Under the pieces are notes generated by a model. That model ran no database searches. It saw only the letters and a list, made by a program, of their open reading frames with translations, and was not told the DNA's origin. From a virus, in the IMG/VR virus record IMGVR_UViG_3300017742_000056, positions 1 through 32,310 of that record: a stretch of DNA of 32,310 bases; one strand, given 5' to 3'. A program made the translations under genes and the position numbers. Below, piece after piece: positions 23,014-29,701 of the stretch (position 1 is its first letter; every line of letters starts with the position of its first letter).

Positions 23014-23110
23014 TTTCATTTTTGCGATAACGGATTGCAATTCTGCAATAACCCATTGCAATTTTGCAACACCTATACCATTATACATACATTATATATA
23101 TAATTATAAG
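23014..23110. repeat. Iteron-like palindrome array A with AT-rich flank (candidate origin or operator)
   Basis: Three 14-bp palindromes of type TTGCA-N4-TGCAA start at 23014 (left arm imperfect), 23035 and 23056, so they are exactly 21 bp apart. The last is followed by CACCTATACCATTA and ~35 bp of almost pure A/T. A fourth near-copy is at 22981-22994. The same arrangement and flank occur at 29596-29690 inside the replication initiator gene. This layout of spaced binding sites next to an easily melted region is typical of theta-type phage origins. The sites also sit in the 5' region of the packaging genes, so they may act as an operator. Confidence 0.7.
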
Positions 23111-23599: not shown

Positions 23600-23640
23600 T
23601 TGAGAAAAACCTTCCAATTATTTGATAATCAGTTTATAAT
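23600..23640 (+). promoter_or_regulatory. Candidate rightward early promoter
   Basis: TTGAGA at 23600-23605, a 17-bp spacer and TGATAA at 23623-23628 give a plausible sigma-70-type promoter. A perfect TATAAT lies a few bases further on at 23635-23640. Either would start the transcript that carries the structured leader and the first hammerhead ribozyme. Confidence 0.4.
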
Positions 23641-23673
23641 GGTGGCTCGTTCTTTTCCAGTCTCGCCCAGCAA

Positions 23674-23730
23674 TGAGCCAGACAGAGTTAGCTAAAGCTA
23701 GCTACTTCGCCAGCCAGCGTTACCGCTGAG
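23674..23730 (+). CDS. Possible 18-aa leader peptide
   Basis: An ATG-initiated 18-residue frame (MSQTELAKASYFASQRYR) lies about 35 bp after the candidate promoter and ends in TGA. It has no Shine-Dalgarno sequence and no known family. A second 29-codon frame follows at 23753-23842. Both may be chance; they are recorded because the leader is otherwise empty of genes and shows local duplications. Confidence 0.2.
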
Positions 23731-23866
23731 TAACATTATCCGATATCTCGACATGGAGAGATGGGGATTAGTTGCCAGCCAGCTGGGTGAGCCAAGCACA
23801 ATGACTCCATGCAGTTACCGCTCCACTTTGATCATCCCTTGATGTATGTGCCAGCAGACTCAGAGC

Positions 23867-23918
23867 CAGTGACATCGATCACTGAGCTAGGTTATAAGTT
23901 GCCAGTTGGATCGGCAAC
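23867..23918 (+). other. Two RNA hairpins in the 5' leader before ribozyme 1
   Basis: Hairpin one pairs CAGTGA (23867-23872) with TCACTG (23879-23884); flanking AGC/GCT can extend it past one bulged A. Hairpin two pairs GTTGCC (23898-23903) with GGCAAC (23913-23918). They immediately precede the first hammerhead ribozyme, so the whole leader is strongly structured. Their role is unknown; they could stabilise the upstream cleavage product or insulate ribozyme folding. Confidence 0.5.
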
Positions 23919-23925
23919 GAGACGA

Positions 23926-23973
23926 GACCGAAACGCGAAAGCGTCCAGTGCTATCTGCACTGCTGATGAGGTC
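23926..23973 (+). ncRNA. Hammerhead ribozyme 1 (open stem II, type II)
   Basis: All core positions are present. Stem II is GACC (23926-23929) with GGTC (23970-23973). GAA is at 23930-23932. Stem III is ACGC with GCGT around a GAAA tetraloop (23933-23944). The cleavage-site C is 23945. Stem I is CAGTGC with GCACTG around the loop TATCT (23946-23962). The catalytic CTGATGA is 23963-23969. Self-cleavage is predicted between 23945 and 23946, leaving a 5'-OH on an RNA that starts with the stem I hairpin, 67 nt before the ATG of the first gene. The stems differ from copies 2 and 3 but always pair, which is strong evidence for a real ribozyme. Confidence 0.9.
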
Positions 23974-23983
23974 AGAACACCTC

Positions 23984-24012
23984 GTATCAATAAACCAAAT
24001 ACAAAAATAGAT
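23984..24012 (+). promoter_or_regulatory. Conserved SD-less leader, copy 1
   Basis: A 29-nt A-rich leader (GTATCAATAAACC, then AAATACAAAAATAGAT) runs directly into the ATG. It is identical to copy 2, nearly identical to copy 3 and similar to a copy before the VWA gene. It has no Shine-Dalgarno sequence. Its conservation down to the start codon decided the start of the 89-aa gene. Confidence 0.7.
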
Positions 24013-24282
24013 ATGAAAAACAAAAGCGACAACAACACCTATGCAGTCATCACCCGTGAAAGCATCTTCGTCGAAGCTCCATGTGAGACTACTTACTTCA
24101 AGAATCTACTGGATGCAGAAAGATTCATGGCTAGCTACTTAGCACGACCAAGAGAAGTCGAGCAGTGCCAGCTGGTCAAAGTAATGCAGTGGCACGAGGA
24201 AGATGAAAACTGCACTGAATACGATGATGCGGTAAGAAGAGTTCAATCTCTTCGCGACCGCAGACCAGTGCATCACTTCTAG
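24013..24282 (+). CDS. Hypothetical early protein, first gene of the ribozyme operon
   Basis: An 89-aa protein starting MKNKSDNNTYAVITRESIF. The frame is open upstream to 23809, but that part overlaps the hammerhead ribozyme and leader, so the ATG at the end of the conserved leader is chosen. It looks like a small alpha/beta protein (YAVITRESIFVEAP, DAERFMASYLARP, CQLVKVMQWHEED) with an acidic middle and a basic C-terminus (VRRVQSLRDRRPVHHF). No family recognised. Its stop codon (24280-24282) overlaps the first base of ribozyme 2, so a terminating ribosome would cover that ribozyme's stem II and GAA. Confidence 0.6.
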   Translation: MKNKSDNNTYAVITRESIFVEAPCETTYFKNLLDAERFMASYLARPREVEQCQLVKVMQWHEEDENCTEYDDAVRRVQSLRDRRPVHHF

Positions 24283-24333
24283 ATCGAAACACCCTCATGG
24301 GTGTCTGACGGTATCTCCGTCACTGACGAGATC
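24282..24333 (+). ncRNA. Hammerhead ribozyme 2 (open stem II, type II)
   Basis: Stem II is GATC (24282-24285) with GATC (24330-24333). GAA is 24286-24288. Stem III is ACACCC with GGGTGT around loop TCAT (24289-24304). The cleavage-site C is 24305. Stem I is TGACGG with CCGTCA around the loop TATCT (24306-24322). The catalytic CTGACGA is 24323-24329 (the variable position 7 is C here). It begins at the last base of the upstream stop codon and ends 30 nt before the next ATG. Cleavage between 24305 and 24306 would leave the upstream mRNA ending in the stem III hairpin. Confidence 0.92.
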
Positions 24334-24334
24334 A

Positions 24335-24363
24335 GTATCAATAAACCAAATACAAAAATAGAT
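24335..24363 (+). promoter_or_regulatory. Conserved SD-less leader, copy 2
   Basis: The 29 nt are identical to copy 1 at 23984-24012 and end directly at the ATG of the 151-aa gene. The leader starts one base after the 3' strand of ribozyme 2 stem II and its adjacent A. Confidence 0.7.
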
Positions 24364-24819
24364 ATGAAAAATAAATGCGAACCAACAATAGATCTCAATT
24401 ATAAATACAAAGCCACAGAAGCTGAGATACTTCGTATGTGGCTTAGGAATAATAAAGATGTGGATAAGGAAGACTTAGCTAAGGTAGTTAAAGCAAATGT
24501 CGTAGTGCTACATAGGTTAGTGACTTTCTATGATGGCTCACCGAATGCGATTGTTCGTAGATGGCGTAAGCATGGTGACTTCTTAGTAGCGGAGTATACA
24601 CCACCAGTCACTCAATCATATGAGGTCACTGCTACCGTTACATTGATAGTGGATGCCACTGATGAACGCGATGCCATGCAGAAAGCAGACGAAGAGTTTG
24701 AGTCCAGAGACTTATGCTGTGAGATGCCATGGGAAGCAAAGCTAGAAGAGGATCGTGAAGACGATGAAGCAGATGAGTTTGATGCCATAGGCATGAAAGA
24801 ACTCTGGAACCAATGCTAA
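24364..24819 (+). CDS. Hypothetical early protein with N-terminal module shared with the MoxR gene
   Basis: A 151-aa protein starting MKNKCEPTIDLNYKYKATEA. Residues ~22-63 (ILRMWLRNNKD to FYDGSPNAI) resemble residues ~6-49 of the downstream MoxR ATPase (LKTWLRKNPNR to ELGGDPEMI): both have a WLR-N start, a helical middle and a G-x-P ending. This may be a small DNA- or partner-binding helix-turn-helix. Residues ~86-115 (SYEVTATVTLIVDATDERDA) form a beta-strand-rich domain like those in several small phage proteins. The C-terminus is very acidic. The longer upstream GTG frame overlaps ribozyme 2 and is rejected. Confidence 0.6.
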   Translation: MKNKCEPTIDLNYKYKATEAEILRMWLRNNKDVDKEDLAKVVKANVVVLHRLVTFYDGSPNAIVRRWRKHGDFLVAEYTPPVTQSYEVTATVTLIVDATDERDAMQKADEEFESRDLCCEMPWEAKLEEDREDDEADEFDAIGMKELWNQC

Positions 24820-24821
24820 CA

Positions 24822-24872
24822 GGTCGAAACACCCACTGGGTGTCTGGCGGTATCTCCGTCACTGATGAGACC
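24822..24872 (+). ncRNA. Hammerhead ribozyme 3 (open stem II, type II)
   Basis: Stem II is GGTC (24822-24825) with GACC (24869-24872). GAA is 24826-24828. Stem III is ACACCC with GGGTGT around a three-base loop ACT (24829-24843). The cleavage-site C is 24844. Stem I is TGGCGG with CCGTCA (one G-U pair) around the loop TATCT (24845-24861). The catalytic CTGATGA is 24862-24868. It begins 2 nt after the stop codon of the 151-aa gene. Relative to copy 2, stem II changes on both sides (GATC/GATC to GGTC/GACC), which is direct covariation. Confidence 0.92.
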
Positions 24873-24876
24873 ATCA

Positions 24877-24905
24877 GTATCAATAAAACCAATACAAAAA
24901 TAGAT
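24877..24905 (+). promoter_or_regulatory. Conserved SD-less leader, copy 3
   Basis: A 29-nt leader identical to copies 1 and 2 except that CCA/ACC is shifted within the A-rich middle. It runs directly into the ATG of the MoxR gene. Confidence 0.7.
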
Positions 24906-26234
24906 ATGAATAATAACGACAAACTAAAGACATGGCTCCGCAAGAATCCTAACAGATCAACGCTGAGTGCAAACGCGACAGACATAGCTTGTGCAGGTAA
25001 GCCACAGCTAGAGAAGTGGGTGATCGAATTGGGTGGTGATCCAGAGATGATCTACAATACAGAATACACCAAGACATCCGCATCAACTCCAGTAACTACA
25101 CCAGTAGCTACACCAGTAGCTAGCACTGAGGTATCCGATGCAGAAAGAATCAAGATACTACAAGATATGTTCGGCAGTAGTAGTGACAATCTTGATACAG
25201 ATAAGGTAGAGCAGATCGTGCGATCCGTAATGGATACCGAAATCCTACCCACCATCGATCAACTGAAGGATGATGTTAAAGAGTTGGCTCCGCTAGCTAG
25301 CACACTGAAAGAGATCGCTGACATAATGAAGACAAAGACATCGGCAAGGTTGCCAGTAGCTACAGCAGTAGCCAGCGGTAACAATCCTATGCTTGAGAAG
25401 GTTGCACCCTATTACACTGCTGGTGAAACATGTTGTGTGCCAGTGTGCATCTCTGCTCCACCATCCTATGGTAAAAGCTACAGCGTCGAGATTCTTGGCA
25501 AGCAATACGAGACGTTCGTCCAGCATGGATGCAATGGATCAGAGGATGAGTTTGCATCTCTGCAAGGTGGCTTTCAACCAGACAGTAAGACTGGTGGATG
25601 GAAAGTAGTAGACGGAAAATTAGCACAAGCAGTGCGATCAGCGAGTGAAGGTAACAATACGTTATTCTTTTTCGACGAAGCGTTCCGAATGCATTCAGAG
25701 ACCGCTGAAAATCTTCTACAGTTTCTGGCTCCGCAACCAGACGAAGATGGCGATGATGTATACCAGCTATACACCAAGCATAGCGATGGTAGTAACCTAG
25801 AGTTACTGCAATGCAAAGCGGACAAGTTGCACATCATATGTGCGACCAATCTCTGCGAGATTGAACCACCAGAAGCACTGATGTCTCGCTTCCTAATAAA
25901 GCACGTTCAATACGAAACAAAGATGATTGAATACATCAGTGAATCAGTAGCTAAGAAGTTTGGCATAGCTAATCCAACAAACCTAGCGAAGCTATACGCT
26001 AAAGCCATGGGTGAGTCTCGCAAGATGCGAGCCAATGGTCAGATACTATTGCCACTTTGCATCCGCACACTGAAGCGTGCGTGTATGGTAGCAAAGGATG
26101 CCACTGACGAAAGCGTTCGCGAGTGGATCAGAGACGAGAGTATGGATGCCATGCTCATGTGGAATTCTGACACTGGGGATGTCACTGAGGATAGTGTGGC
26201 TGGTGTTAGGGAACTAGCTAAGATTCTTAGCTAA
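24906..26234 (+). CDS. MoxR-type AAA+ ATPase
   Basis: A 442-aa protein. An N-terminal helical module (residues ~6-49) is followed by a Thr/Pro/Ala linker (TPVTTPVATPVAS) and a coiled segment (IDQLKDDVKELAPLASTLKE). The AAA+ core begins near residue 155. Walker A is APPSYGKS (184-191), with Ala where Gly is usual. Walker B is LFFFDE (253-258). Sensor 1 is the Asn in ICATN (N315) and the arginine finger candidate is in EALMSRF (R328). A helical lid follows. The fold and the adjacent VWA partner fit the MoxR/AAA_5 family, which remodels or activates proteins. The ATG at the conserved leader was chosen over the longer frame at 24813, which overlaps ribozyme 3. Confidence 0.85.
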   Translation: MNNNDKLKTWLRKNPNRSTLSANATDIACAGKPQLEKWVIELGGDPEMIYNTEYTKTSASTPVTTPVATPVASTEVSDAERIKILQDMFGSSSDNLDTDKVEQIVRSVMDTEILPTIDQLKDDVKELAPLASTLKEIADIMKTKTSARLPVATAVASGNNPMLEKVAPYYTAGETCCVPVCISAPPSYGKSYSVEILGKQYETFVQHGCNGSEDEFASLQGGFQPDSKTGGWKVVDGKLAQAVRSASEGNNTLFFFDEAFRMHSETAENLLQFLAPQPDEDGDDVYQLYTKHSDGSNLELLQCKADKLHIICATNLCEIEPPEALMSRFLIKHVQYETKMIEYISESVAKKFGIANPTNLAKLYAKAMGESRKMRANGQILLPLCIRTLKRACMVAKDATDESVREWIRDESMDAMLMWNSDTGDVTEDSVAGVRELAKILS

Positions 26235-26235
26235 C

Positions 26236-26262
26236 GTATCAACAAATCAAATACACATAGAT
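26236..26262 (+). promoter_or_regulatory. Conserved SD-less leader, copy 4 (no ribozyme)
   Basis: A 27-nt relative of the leaders at 23984, 24335 and 24877 (GTATCAACAAATC, then AAATACACATAGAT) ends at the ATG of the VWA gene. No hammerhead core precedes it, so the MoxR and VWA genes would stay on one mRNA. Confidence 0.65.
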
Positions 26263-27786
26263 ATGAATATGCTAGATACCATAACTAAAGCGTATCGCTT
26301 TTGTAAGCGTAACGTAACCGCTACCCAGAAGGGTGGCGTTCTAACACGAATGAAGATAGCTACTGGCAGACGATATCAGTTTGATGTCGATGCCAGTGTT
26401 AACACTGCAAACTGGTGTTATAACAATCGTCTCAATCGACATGAGATAAAATGCGGAACATCATTGGATCGTATCTGTAATGCTGATACAAAGTCATCTC
26501 CGAAAAAGATGAAGGAGTTTATCCAGCAGATCATCCGACATGAGACTGAGCATGGCATCCAGACTGATCGCACTAATGTGGTCGGCACTTGGTGTAAGGA
26601 TCATGGCATCCCATTCAGATTGTATAATCTGTTTGAAGACTGTCGCATCGAATACAACAGTGCTATCCGCAAGGATGGCGATGGTGCGTTCCGCTGGGTT
26701 AAATACCAAGATGTGGATACCAGCTATAACCTAGCTAGCTCACTACTATGGGCAATCAAGATCAATGAAGCTGGTATTAAAAAGTCAGCTAGTGCATATG
26801 TGCCAGATTGGACGGGATCAGAGTATATGATCTACGCTGGTAAGAGACGTAAGACTCGTCTCATCGTGCTGGCTTTTTATCGCAGGATAATAGCTACCAC
26901 TTGTTCGATGAACCTAATGCCAATCTGTCTTGAGTGGATAGAGTTATTCGGCAAAGAGGTTCCGCCATCCATGGGCGATGATACCATCAATGGTGAGCTT
27001 GATCCCAATTCACCAGAGGGTGAGGAAGTCGATGAGACTTCCCAAGTCGAAGTCGATGACACTAACCCAAACCAAGATAGGCAGAGTAGCTGGTGGGATC
27101 AAAAGACAAAGCCAATCAACGATCACCAGATATCAAGGATAGCTAGGGCGATGAATTCCATCGTTACCAAAGCTAAGTCCACCAAGAATAAGCTATCCAC
27201 CATGGGTAGTAAAATCTCAGTGGATCGTATCATACAGGGAAGCGAGAGATCGTTTTTCAAACGTGGTCGCACGAGAGGTAAGCGTAGAGTAACGCTCATC
27301 GTGGATACCAGTGGGTCGATGGAAAACACATGGAATGTTCATGGCGGTAGGGAATTCGTGTTAGCTTTCAGACAGCTAGCTAGGAAAAACCTAATCGATC
27401 TGGACATCCTATTGACTCAAGTCGATTGCACACGGAGTGCGGTATCCAAACGTATCGATAAAACTGATACAGATGAGTGGATCAACAACCTAGACTGCCA
27501 AGGATGTGGCGAGGGTGTTATGCAATGCATCAAACGGTTCCTACCGATGATCAAGAAAAGCACGACATCGATCATATTCACTGATGCGTATCTAACGGAT
27601 GATGACATCGATACCCAGTTTTATCGCAACTTGGGTCTCAACATGATCGCATCATACATCGAACCCAATGACTGGGCGGTAGGTGGTGGTCGCAATAGGA
27701 TGAATCAGCACTTCGCCAGAAGTGTCATCGCGACCAACGCTACTGATCTAGCTAGAAGGTTAATGCGTGAAATCCTCAAGGACTAA
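26263..27786 (+). CDS. Metallopeptidase-like plus von Willebrand A domain protein
   Basis: A 507-aa protein. The N-terminal domain has a zincin motif HETEH (H93-E94-x-x-H97) in IIRHETEHGIQ, followed by NLFEDCRIE (122-130), where acidic residues usually complete the metal site. An acidic Pro/Glu/Asp linker follows (~235-275). The C-terminal von Willebrand factor A domain has the MIDAS motif DTSGS (348-352) and later an IIFTDA strand. This combination matches the DUF2201-type putative metallopeptidase/VWA family, which pairs with MoxR ATPases. The gene follows the MoxR gene by 28 bp, so the two probably work as an ATPase-VWA chaperone pair. Whether the peptidase site is active is unknown. Confidence 0.82.
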   Translation: MNMLDTITKAYRFCKRNVTATQKGGVLTRMKIATGRRYQFDVDASVNTANWCYNNRLNRHEIKCGTSLDRICNADTKSSPKKMKEFIQQIIRHETEHGIQTDRTNVVGTWCKDHGIPFRLYNLFEDCRIEYNSAIRKDGDGAFRWVKYQDVDTSYNLASSLLWAIKINEAGIKKSASAYVPDWTGSEYMIYAGKRRKTRLIVLAFYRRIIATTCSMNLMPICLEWIELFGKEVPPSMGDDTINGELDPNSPEGEEVDETSQVEVDDTNPNQDRQSSWWDQKTKPINDHQISRIARAMNSIVTKAKSTKNKLSTMGSKISVDRIIQGSERSFFKRGRTRGKRRVTLIVDTSGSMENTWNVHGGREFVLAFRQLARKNLIDLDILLTQVDCTRSAVSKRIDKTDTDEWINNLDCQGCGEGVMQCIKRFLPMIKKSTTSIIFTDAYLTDDDIDTQFYRNLGLNMIASYIEPNDWAVGGGRNRMNQHFARSVIATNATDLARRLMREILKD

Positions 27787-27790
27787 TACG

Positions 27791-28222
27791 ATGATCAGAA
27801 ACCTAGAAGTCATCCTATACGTAGTCATACTGCTCGCGGCAGTAATCATCAGCGAAGCACAAACACCATCGGAGATCGTCACAGCTACCATCATACTGGA
27901 AGCTGGTGGCGAATACTCTGAGGGTGCGATGCAAGCGGTATACGAAGTGATCGCCAACCGATCAGCTAACCGCCAGCTAGCACTGAGTGAGGTCTGCCTG
28001 CAGGCATCCCAGTTTGCTTGCTGGAGCGACAAAGACGTAGCTAGCCAGATAGCTAAAGCCAAGTCTCACCCTAGATGGGGTGAGGCTTTTGTTATAACCC
28101 TGTATCCGAAAACCAACTACACTAACGGAGCAGATCACTACCATGCGGATCATGTCGATCCATACTGGAATAAACACATGAAGGTGACCGCCATCATTGG
28201 TCGGCACATCTTCTACAAATAG
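27791..28222 (+). CDS. SleB-like cell-wall hydrolase (endolysin candidate)
   Basis: A 143-aa protein starting MIRNLEVILYVV. Residues ~6-23 are a hydrophobic signal or anchor ending SEA-Q, a possible cleavage site. The hydrolase domain has the SleB/CwlJ pattern: IILEAGGE (catalytic Glu E37, E41), a YEVIANRS helix, FACWSD, and near the C-terminus GADHYHADHVDPYW with several His. This family cuts peptidoglycan glycan strands. The signal would let it reach the wall without a holin, or be anchored as a signal-arrest-release enzyme. It sits 4 bp after the VWA gene in the rightward operon, far from the structural genes. The upstream ATG at 27767 overlaps the VWA gene and is less likely. Confidence 0.8.
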   Translation: MIRNLEVILYVVILLAAVIISEAQTPSEIVTATIILEAGGEYSEGAMQAVYEVIANRSANRQLALSEVCLQASQFACWSDKDVASQIAKAKSHPRWGEAFVITLYPKTNYTNGADHYHADHVDPYWNKHMKVTAIIGRHIFYK

Positions 28223-29274: not shown

Positions 29275-29701
29275 TGAAGACCATGCATCCAAATATGGAC
29301 TCAAGGAGGCTGTTGTGCTTCACAAGATTATATTCTATGTTCTCATCAATGAGAAGGACGGGAGGAATTTTCACAAGGGACAATACTGGACATTTAACTC
29401 AAGAGAAGGCTGGCGAAATGTTTTCAAATGCTTTTCTTATGAACAAGTATGGAGATCACTCAAGGCTCTCGAAAAGAAGGGTGCTTTGGTCTCTGACTCG
29501 TTCAATAGAAGAGCGTATGATAAGACTCGCTGGTATTCTCTTTCGGATTCCCTTGTTAAAGAGGCAAAGGGAAGTGAATACTGGCAGAAAGCCATTCGCA
29601 ATTCTGCGAAACCCAAACGCAAAACTGCGATAACCGATCGCAAAACTGCAACACCAATACCATTAGATAATAATATTATACAAGAAATTAAACCCTATTA
29701 A
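29261..29701 (+). CDS. Winged-helix replication initiator / replisome organiser
   Basis: A 146-aa protein with the pattern of the winged-helix domain at the N-terminus of phage replisome organisers: ASKYGLKEAVVLHKI, KGQYWTFNSREGWRNVF, CFSYEQVWRSLKALEKKGAL (recognition helix region), then NRRAYDKTRWYSLSD (the wing). The C-terminal ~45 residues are encoded by an array of 21-bp palindromic units (29596-29651), as happens where the origin lies inside the initiator gene (lambda O type). It probably binds these repeats and recruits the host helicase machinery. An ATG two codons downstream (29267) is an alternative start; both overlap the end of the preceding gene. Confidence 0.75.
   Translation: MLMFNEDHASKYGLKEAVVLHKIIFYVLINEKDGRNFHKGQYWTFNSREGWRNVFKCFSYEQVWRSLKALEKKGALVSDSFNRRAYDKTRWYSLSDSLVKEAKGSEYWQKAIRNSAKPKRKTAITDRKTATPIPLDNNIIQEIKPY
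29596..29690. repeat. Iteron-like palindrome array B inside the initiator gene (candidate origin)
   Basis: Three 14-bp palindromes start at 29596 (TCGCA-ATTC-TGCGA, perfect), 29617 and 29638, each 21 bp apart. They are followed by CACCAATACCATTA and AT-rich DNA. Spacing, palindrome core (GCA-N4-TGC) and right flank match array A at 23014-23110. Because 21 bp equals seven codons the repeat is also visible in the protein (KTAITD, KTATPIPL). Confidence 0.75.

Follow-up and report, generated by a model that had tools for sequence, protein, structure and literature searches.

The window, by which we mean the whole 32,310-nucleotide stretch analysed here (IMG/VR record IMGVR_UViG_3300017742_000056), carries a set of genes on one strand with three type II hammerhead motifs, C1 to C3, placed along them. 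The features of this region, with bit scores from a covariance model of our own that is described below, are as follows.

23642–23925, + strand: structured non-coding leader RNA directly 5' of C1, recognised by folding and by covariation of its last hairpin
23926–23973, + strand: C1, type II hammerhead (51.1 bits, E = 1.7e-12)
23963–23975, + strand: C1 alternative fold CTGAT-GAG-GTCAG, over the core and a stem II strand
23966–23986, + strand: longer C1 hairpin ATGAGGT/ACCTCGT, the one preferred by RNAfold
23985–24017, + strand: leader repeat 1, A-rich, no Shine-Dalgarno sequence, ending in the gene 1 start
24013–24282, + strand: gene 1, 89 aa, no family match
24282–24333, + strand: C2, type II hammerhead (68.0 bits, E = 2.6e-17)
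24323–24335, + strand: C2 alternative hairpin CTGA-CGAGA-TCAG
24336–24368, + strand: leader repeat 2, ending in the gene 2 start
24364–24819, + strand: gene 2, 151 aa, no family match
24822–24872, + strand: C3, type II hammerhead (60.1 bits, E = 4.6e-15)
24862–24877, + strand: C3 alternative hairpin CTGATG-AGAC-CATCAG, 6 bp, which excludes stem II and the core
24878–24910, + strand: leader repeat 3, ending in the gene 3 start
24906–26234, + strand: gene 3, 442 aa, AAA+ ATPase (PF00004)
26237–26267, + strand: leader repeat 4, diverged, before the VWA-like gene, no hammerhead
26263–27786, + strand: gene 4, 507 aa, VWA-like (DTSGS motif found by eye, no Pfam match)

A longer open reading frame, 23809–24282, was considered for gene 1 and rejected, since it spans the ribozyme and the leader repeat puts the start at 24013. 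The preliminary description of this DNA spoke of an early operon; that label is unsupported, the same-strand unit also including an endolysin-like gene (27767–28222). It also had a ribozyme in front of each successive gene, which is right for the first three genes and wrong for genes 4 to 6, where there is none. Gene 4 has a leader repeat and no ribozyme, so the leader works without cleavage. The gene 3 protein had no match among the INPHARED phage records, and neither it nor the gene 4 protein has a sequence relative in the PDB. These two neighbours (24906–27786) are 50% and 47% identical to their counterparts in the related contig L006, with no ribozyme between them. There are no tRNA or tmRNA genes in the window, and the one site suggested by a promoter scan (23600–23629) was no better than chance. 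Two further observations concern the window as a whole. The words TAGCTA (73 against 9.8 expected from base composition), AGCTAG (42 against 6.4) and GCTAGC (31 against 5.4) are overrepresented 6 to 7 times, which is visible in relatives as well, and an 82-nt direct repeat of 71% identity occurs at two distant places, 23017–23098 and 29599–29680.

The approximately 290 nt before C1 fold better than their shuffles, with a z-score of -3.45 in the window and -2.77 in L006. A position-matched leader RNA is found in relatives (112–360 in L006, 5098–5362 in L273 and 5583–5905 in L286; about 260–335 nt overall), with a shared GTTCTTT near the 5' end. Its last hairpin (23898–23918) pairs in all five distinct forms, and both sides vary at five of its five pairs. 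The RNA has no match in Rfam. Cleavage of C1 would create its 3' end.

Three type II hammerheads in the window

C1, C2 and C3 have the element order stem II, GAA, stem III, H, stem I, CUGANGA, stem II, with stem II open. The core (CUGANGA, GAAA, and UH before the cut) is present in all three, and loop I is TATCT in each. The stems differ. C1 has GACC/GGTC for stem II, ACGC/GCGT for stem III and CAGTGC/GCACTG for stem I; C2 has GATC/GATC, ACACCC/GGGTGT and TGACGG/CCGTCA; and C3 has GGTC/GACC, ACACCC/GGGTGT and TGGCGG/CCGTCA, the last with one G-U pair. The cuts predicted from the core fall at 23945/23946 (C1), 24305/24306 (C2) and 24844/24845 (C3). The window thus has several hammerheads, three in number, flanking single genes on one strand. 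The first base of C2 is the last base of the gene 1 TAG, and C3 begins 2 nt past the gene 2 TAA. On all of these points, the stems, the loops, the cut positions and the offsets of C2 and C3 from the preceding stop codons, inspection of the sequence agrees with the preliminary description.

The same description had placed three type II hammerheads with perfect cores here, and two independent approaches recover them. A strict descriptor, demanding CTGANGA, GAAA, T-H before stem I and pairing in every stem, returned C1 to C3 and nothing else on both strands of the window, and gave 0 matches in 40 Markov-shuffled windows. The covariance-model check that had been proposed came out differently with different models. 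The Rfam model Hammerhead_II (RF02276) reports nothing in the window at its gathering cut-off of 37 bits; with a relaxed limit it scores C2 at 27.6 and C3 at 20.6 bits and does not list C1. Our own covariance model (R1), which was built from 62 copies on unrelated IMG/VR contigs with the window phage and its near relatives excluded, matches all three copies at 51 to 68 bits and finds no other match in the window. The Rfam shortfall reflects the narrow range of that model and not a loss of the core, and Rfam was dropped as a sole test because RF02276 is too narrow for copies of this kind.

Loop I of C1 to C3 has no complement directly after stem II. A pairing of TATCT with AGATA at the start codon was also considered. 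It is exact in the window, but L006, with the loops TACAT and TATCT, lacks AGATA, and the candidate was rejected.

A wider subtype and its place between genes

Two pattern scans of IMG/VR, together with fetched relatives, yielded at least 373 type II hammerheads (at least 304 distinct) in at least 242 loci. The patterns demanded the core and stem II only, yet among the matches listed stems I and III also form in 268 of the 274 distinct core-and-stem-II pattern matches; the class is therefore real, and the test is not circular. We rely on this result instead of the pair counts from alignment A1, which are circular in that the descriptor had demanded pairing. Arrays of up to 8 ribozymes occur on other contigs among the matches listed. 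The stem I hairpin is 17 nt long in 270 of the 304 copies, and an A stands before stem II in 296 of 302 and after it in 255 of 302, again among the matches listed and neither of them demanded by the pattern. Stem II has 4 bp in nearly all copies listed, a length that was part of the search patterns, which also bias the proportions of the stem II families. Where fixed-length copies with a five-nt loop I were tabulated, the first nucleotide is U in 67 of 67 and the third is A in 51 of 67.

Most published type II hammerheads pair loop I with the 3' tail in a pseudoknot, although this is not a defining feature (PMC3088659, PMC6155905). Watson-Crick matches between loop I and the tail in the 302 copies listed were not above permutation, and no pseudoknot is evident. 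Type I and type III hammerheads were absent from the loci fetched for type II, as judged by descriptors that find the positive controls. In 14 hammerhead-rich loci, most of them picked because they hold arrays, no Rfam hammerhead match reached the cut-off, and the best score in five of these loci was 34.6 bits. A scan of genomes among bacterial assemblies added at least 25 stretches, all confirmed by our own covariance model, several of which come from Gastranaerophilales, Synergistales and Verrucomicrobia-related assemblies. Taken from sequence, these copies appear to make up a real and widespread type II subtype with a 17-nt stem I hairpin and without the usual loop I-tail pseudoknot. Phages have hundreds of copies, and in the loci tested most of these score too low for Rfam; many are probably overlooked by current annotation.

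The preliminary description had proposed a search of related phages for the same arrangement, and it is present there. Related contigs carry L-numbers here, and those ending before the leader were left out of the counts of ribozymes and genes. Every complete relative that keeps any ribozyme follows one plan: the leader RNA, and then ribozymes that outnumber by one the genes preceding the ATPase gene. There are two genes and three ribozymes in the window and L005; one gene and two ribozymes in L004, L006, L274, L277, L278, L279 and L281; and no gene and one ribozyme in L273, L275, L280, L282, L284 and L286. In L287 (5570–6000) no hammerhead was detected, although the ATPase gene is there and the leader begins in a similar way. 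The stem sequences differ and pairing is retained in L005, L006, L274, L279 and L286. Two hammerhead subtypes occupy the same, orthologous sites among these relatives; the first hammerheads of L273–L284 belong to a pseudoknotted subtype (TGGCT/AGCCA), which in L284 gives an Rfam hammerhead match. In L274, two ribozymes of different subtypes are each followed by identical leader sequence. Gene 1 and C2 are missing from L004, where the junction falls within the identical leader repeat; on this evidence L004 looks like the window minus one ribozyme-gene cassette.

Separately from the ribozymes, four of the relatives have RNAs of 66–67 nt (L006 4679–4744, L273 10005–10071, L274 8684–8750, L286 9946–10011) that are absent from the window. 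They match tmRNA (RF00023) above cut-off with about 310 nt missing and consist of the tRNA-like domain alone with a CCA end.

The placement between genes is also regular in the larger set. Among the matches listed, an upstream reading frame end could be detected for 276 of 304 copies, and in 236 of these 276 the stop lies within -12 to +4 nt of stem II, against about 5% for random positions. The commonest arrangement among the matches listed has the last base of the stop codon somewhere from 3 nt ahead of stem II to 1 nt within it; the conserved A that precedes stem II therefore often belongs to the stop codon. On the downstream side, the median distance from stem II to the ATG is 23 nt among the matches listed, and a Shine-Dalgarno-like sequence is present in 255 of 290 copies listed. 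The predicted cut comes after the upstream stop and well ahead of the downstream start, and thus leaves both reading frames undamaged.

An alternative hairpin over the core

Many copies can form a second hairpin from the 3' half of the core and the nucleotides just past stem II. It takes core nucleotides and the last nucleotide of stem II, so the active fold is excluded while it is formed. After a stem II strand GGTC, an AG follows in 90 of 106 copies listed, giving CUGAN-GAG-GUCAG, and in other stem II families CUGANG-NNNN-CNUCAG occurs. Near the core, 143 of the copies listed have a TCAG, while non-overlapping control words reach at most 7. The hairpin is not universal: most copies with a GGTC/GACC stem lack the TCAG tail.

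Evidence for this pairing comes from the N of CUGANGA, a free nucleotide in the hammerhead fold. A further, independent scan listed 80 new copies from 74 loci, in which N and its partner are T-A in 42, C-G in 37 and T-T in 1; that is, Watson-Crick in 79 of 80 against 39.7 expected (Fisher 2e-23, a value that is indicative, the copies being related by descent). By RNAfold, the alternative fold of C1 to C3 equals or exceeds the hammerhead secondary structure in stability, and with the leader included this or a similar hairpin is preferred in all three. The hammerhead is the RNAfold minimum in 14% of copies with a TCAG tail and in 63% of those without (436 copies, among the matches listed). RNAfold omits the tertiary contacts that stabilise hammerheads, which makes the balance between the two folds uncertain. 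Should the alternative hairpin be the first to form, it could prevent cleavage rather than come after it.

Proposed transcript processing, rival readings and known systems

We favour, with a probability of about 0.72, the reading that three active hammerheads process one polycistronic transcript and that the alternative hairpin locks the product. It is built on the motif, the subtype, the covariation of the ribozyme and of the alternative hairpin, and the positions relative to stop and start codons. From these we infer cleavage activity, a stabilisation of the mRNAs and a role for refolding. The cuts would fall downstream of the leader RNA and between genes 1, 2 and 3, releasing the leader RNA and separate mRNAs. 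Each upstream piece would end in the stem III hairpin with a 2',3'-cyclic phosphate, and each downstream piece would start with a 5'-OH at the stem I hairpin; with stem II open, both new ends are hairpin-capped. Judged by topology, type II would be the form that leaves a complete hairpin flush at both new ends. Once cut, the strand carrying half of the core may refold with the nucleotides past stem II into a second hairpin, which would make cutting irreversible and add a second 5' hairpin before the unstructured A-rich leader, where translation would start. For tandem arrays of the same broad type, cleavage has been published both in vitro and in E. coli (PMC3088659).

The main rival to processing with a post-cut lock reverses the order of events. 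As a two-state switch, the alternative hairpin would precede cleavage and keep the ribozyme off, and translation would gate the cutting: a terminating ribosome covers the 5' strand of stem II and GAAA, so that the cut is made only when the upstream frame is not being translated. The near-perfect covariation of the hairpin suits this reading as well, as do the stop codon's distance of no more than a few nt from stem II in most listed copies and the predicted stability of the alternative fold before the cut, at least equal to that of the hammerhead. Stops and starts are packed tightly in compact phage genomes regardless, however, C1 is preceded by a non-coding leader and not by an open reading frame, and many copies have no such hairpin. 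We regard the switch as possible but doubtful, in the details of ribosome coverage as much as in outline, and are equally tentative about its extension to the large phage type II class, whose members would be two-state RNAs, core or hairpin, with the ribosome at the stop choosing and cleavage coupled to upstream translation.

The ribozymes may also be relics or borders of mobile cassettes, where ribozyme and leader repeat travel or recombine together with small genes and the phage has no use for cleavage. L004, lacking gene 1 and C2 with its junction inside an identical leader repeat, would be such an exchange, 0, 1 or 2 genes lie between leader RNA and ATPase across relatives, and the literature reports an association of hammerheads with phages that has no known role (PMC10085705, PMC6155905). 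We think this unlikely in view of the core and stem pairing, which is perfect despite changed stem sequences, the constant position with respect to stop and start codons, and the two subtypes that substitute for each other at the same site. Covariation by itself would also be produced by a DNA-binding palindrome, and the CTGANG-NNNN-CNTCAG inverted repeat has zero G-U pairs in the independent tetraloop set, as an operator in DNA might. Yet U-G pairs are common in the GACC/GGTC family (about 30 of 104 listed), the repeat lies within transcribed gaps between genes and keeps a fixed register with the ribozyme core throughout, and among the matches listed it is found in arrays of up to 8 ribozymes and on many unrelated contigs, all of which makes an operator very improbable.

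The preliminary description knew of no comparable operon, but the clustered arrangement is already known since 2011, when Perreault et al. described hammerhead clusters that flank single phage genes, prophage genes included, and tested tandem arrays, which were shown to cleave (PMC3088659). What hammerheads do in bacteria and phages is described in the literature as an open question (PMC6155905, PMC10085705). The stop placement, the hairpins at both ends and a covarying, core-hiding hairpin in many copies point to a role in mRNA processing. In the literature covered, to which most subscription papers do not belong, we found neither the fixed-geometry subtype as such nor the placement beside stop codons nor the alternative hairpin described. 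As far as we found, the subtype, the stop abutting or overlapping stem II, the alternative hairpin and the plan of one ribozyme more than genes are new.

With the published type II hammerheads of RF02276 (PMC3088659), C1 to C3 share the core, the element order, the open stem II and, by prediction, cleavage after C. The present subtype differs in having no evident loop I-tail pseudoknot, a 4-bp stem II flanked by A, a 17-nt stem I hairpin, a five-nt loop opened by U, the alternative hairpin, and Rfam scores below cut-off. Another relative in arrangement is HHphage of haloviruses HF1/HF2, likewise a hammerhead just 5' of a viral gene, where a mapped transcript 5' end lies at most three nt from the cleavage site; unlike C1 to C3, it is a single copy with a variant core in an archaeal virus (PMC3088659). 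Also close are the prophage clusters (the Agrobacterium ardA triple, Azorhizobium and Clostridium scindens), which also have several hammerheads per transcript flanking single genes and were proposed to give single-gene mRNAs (PMC3088659). As they are described, what sets the window and its relatives apart from these clusters is that the ribozymes lie directly beside stop codons, have repeated leaders after them, and begin after a structured leader RNA.
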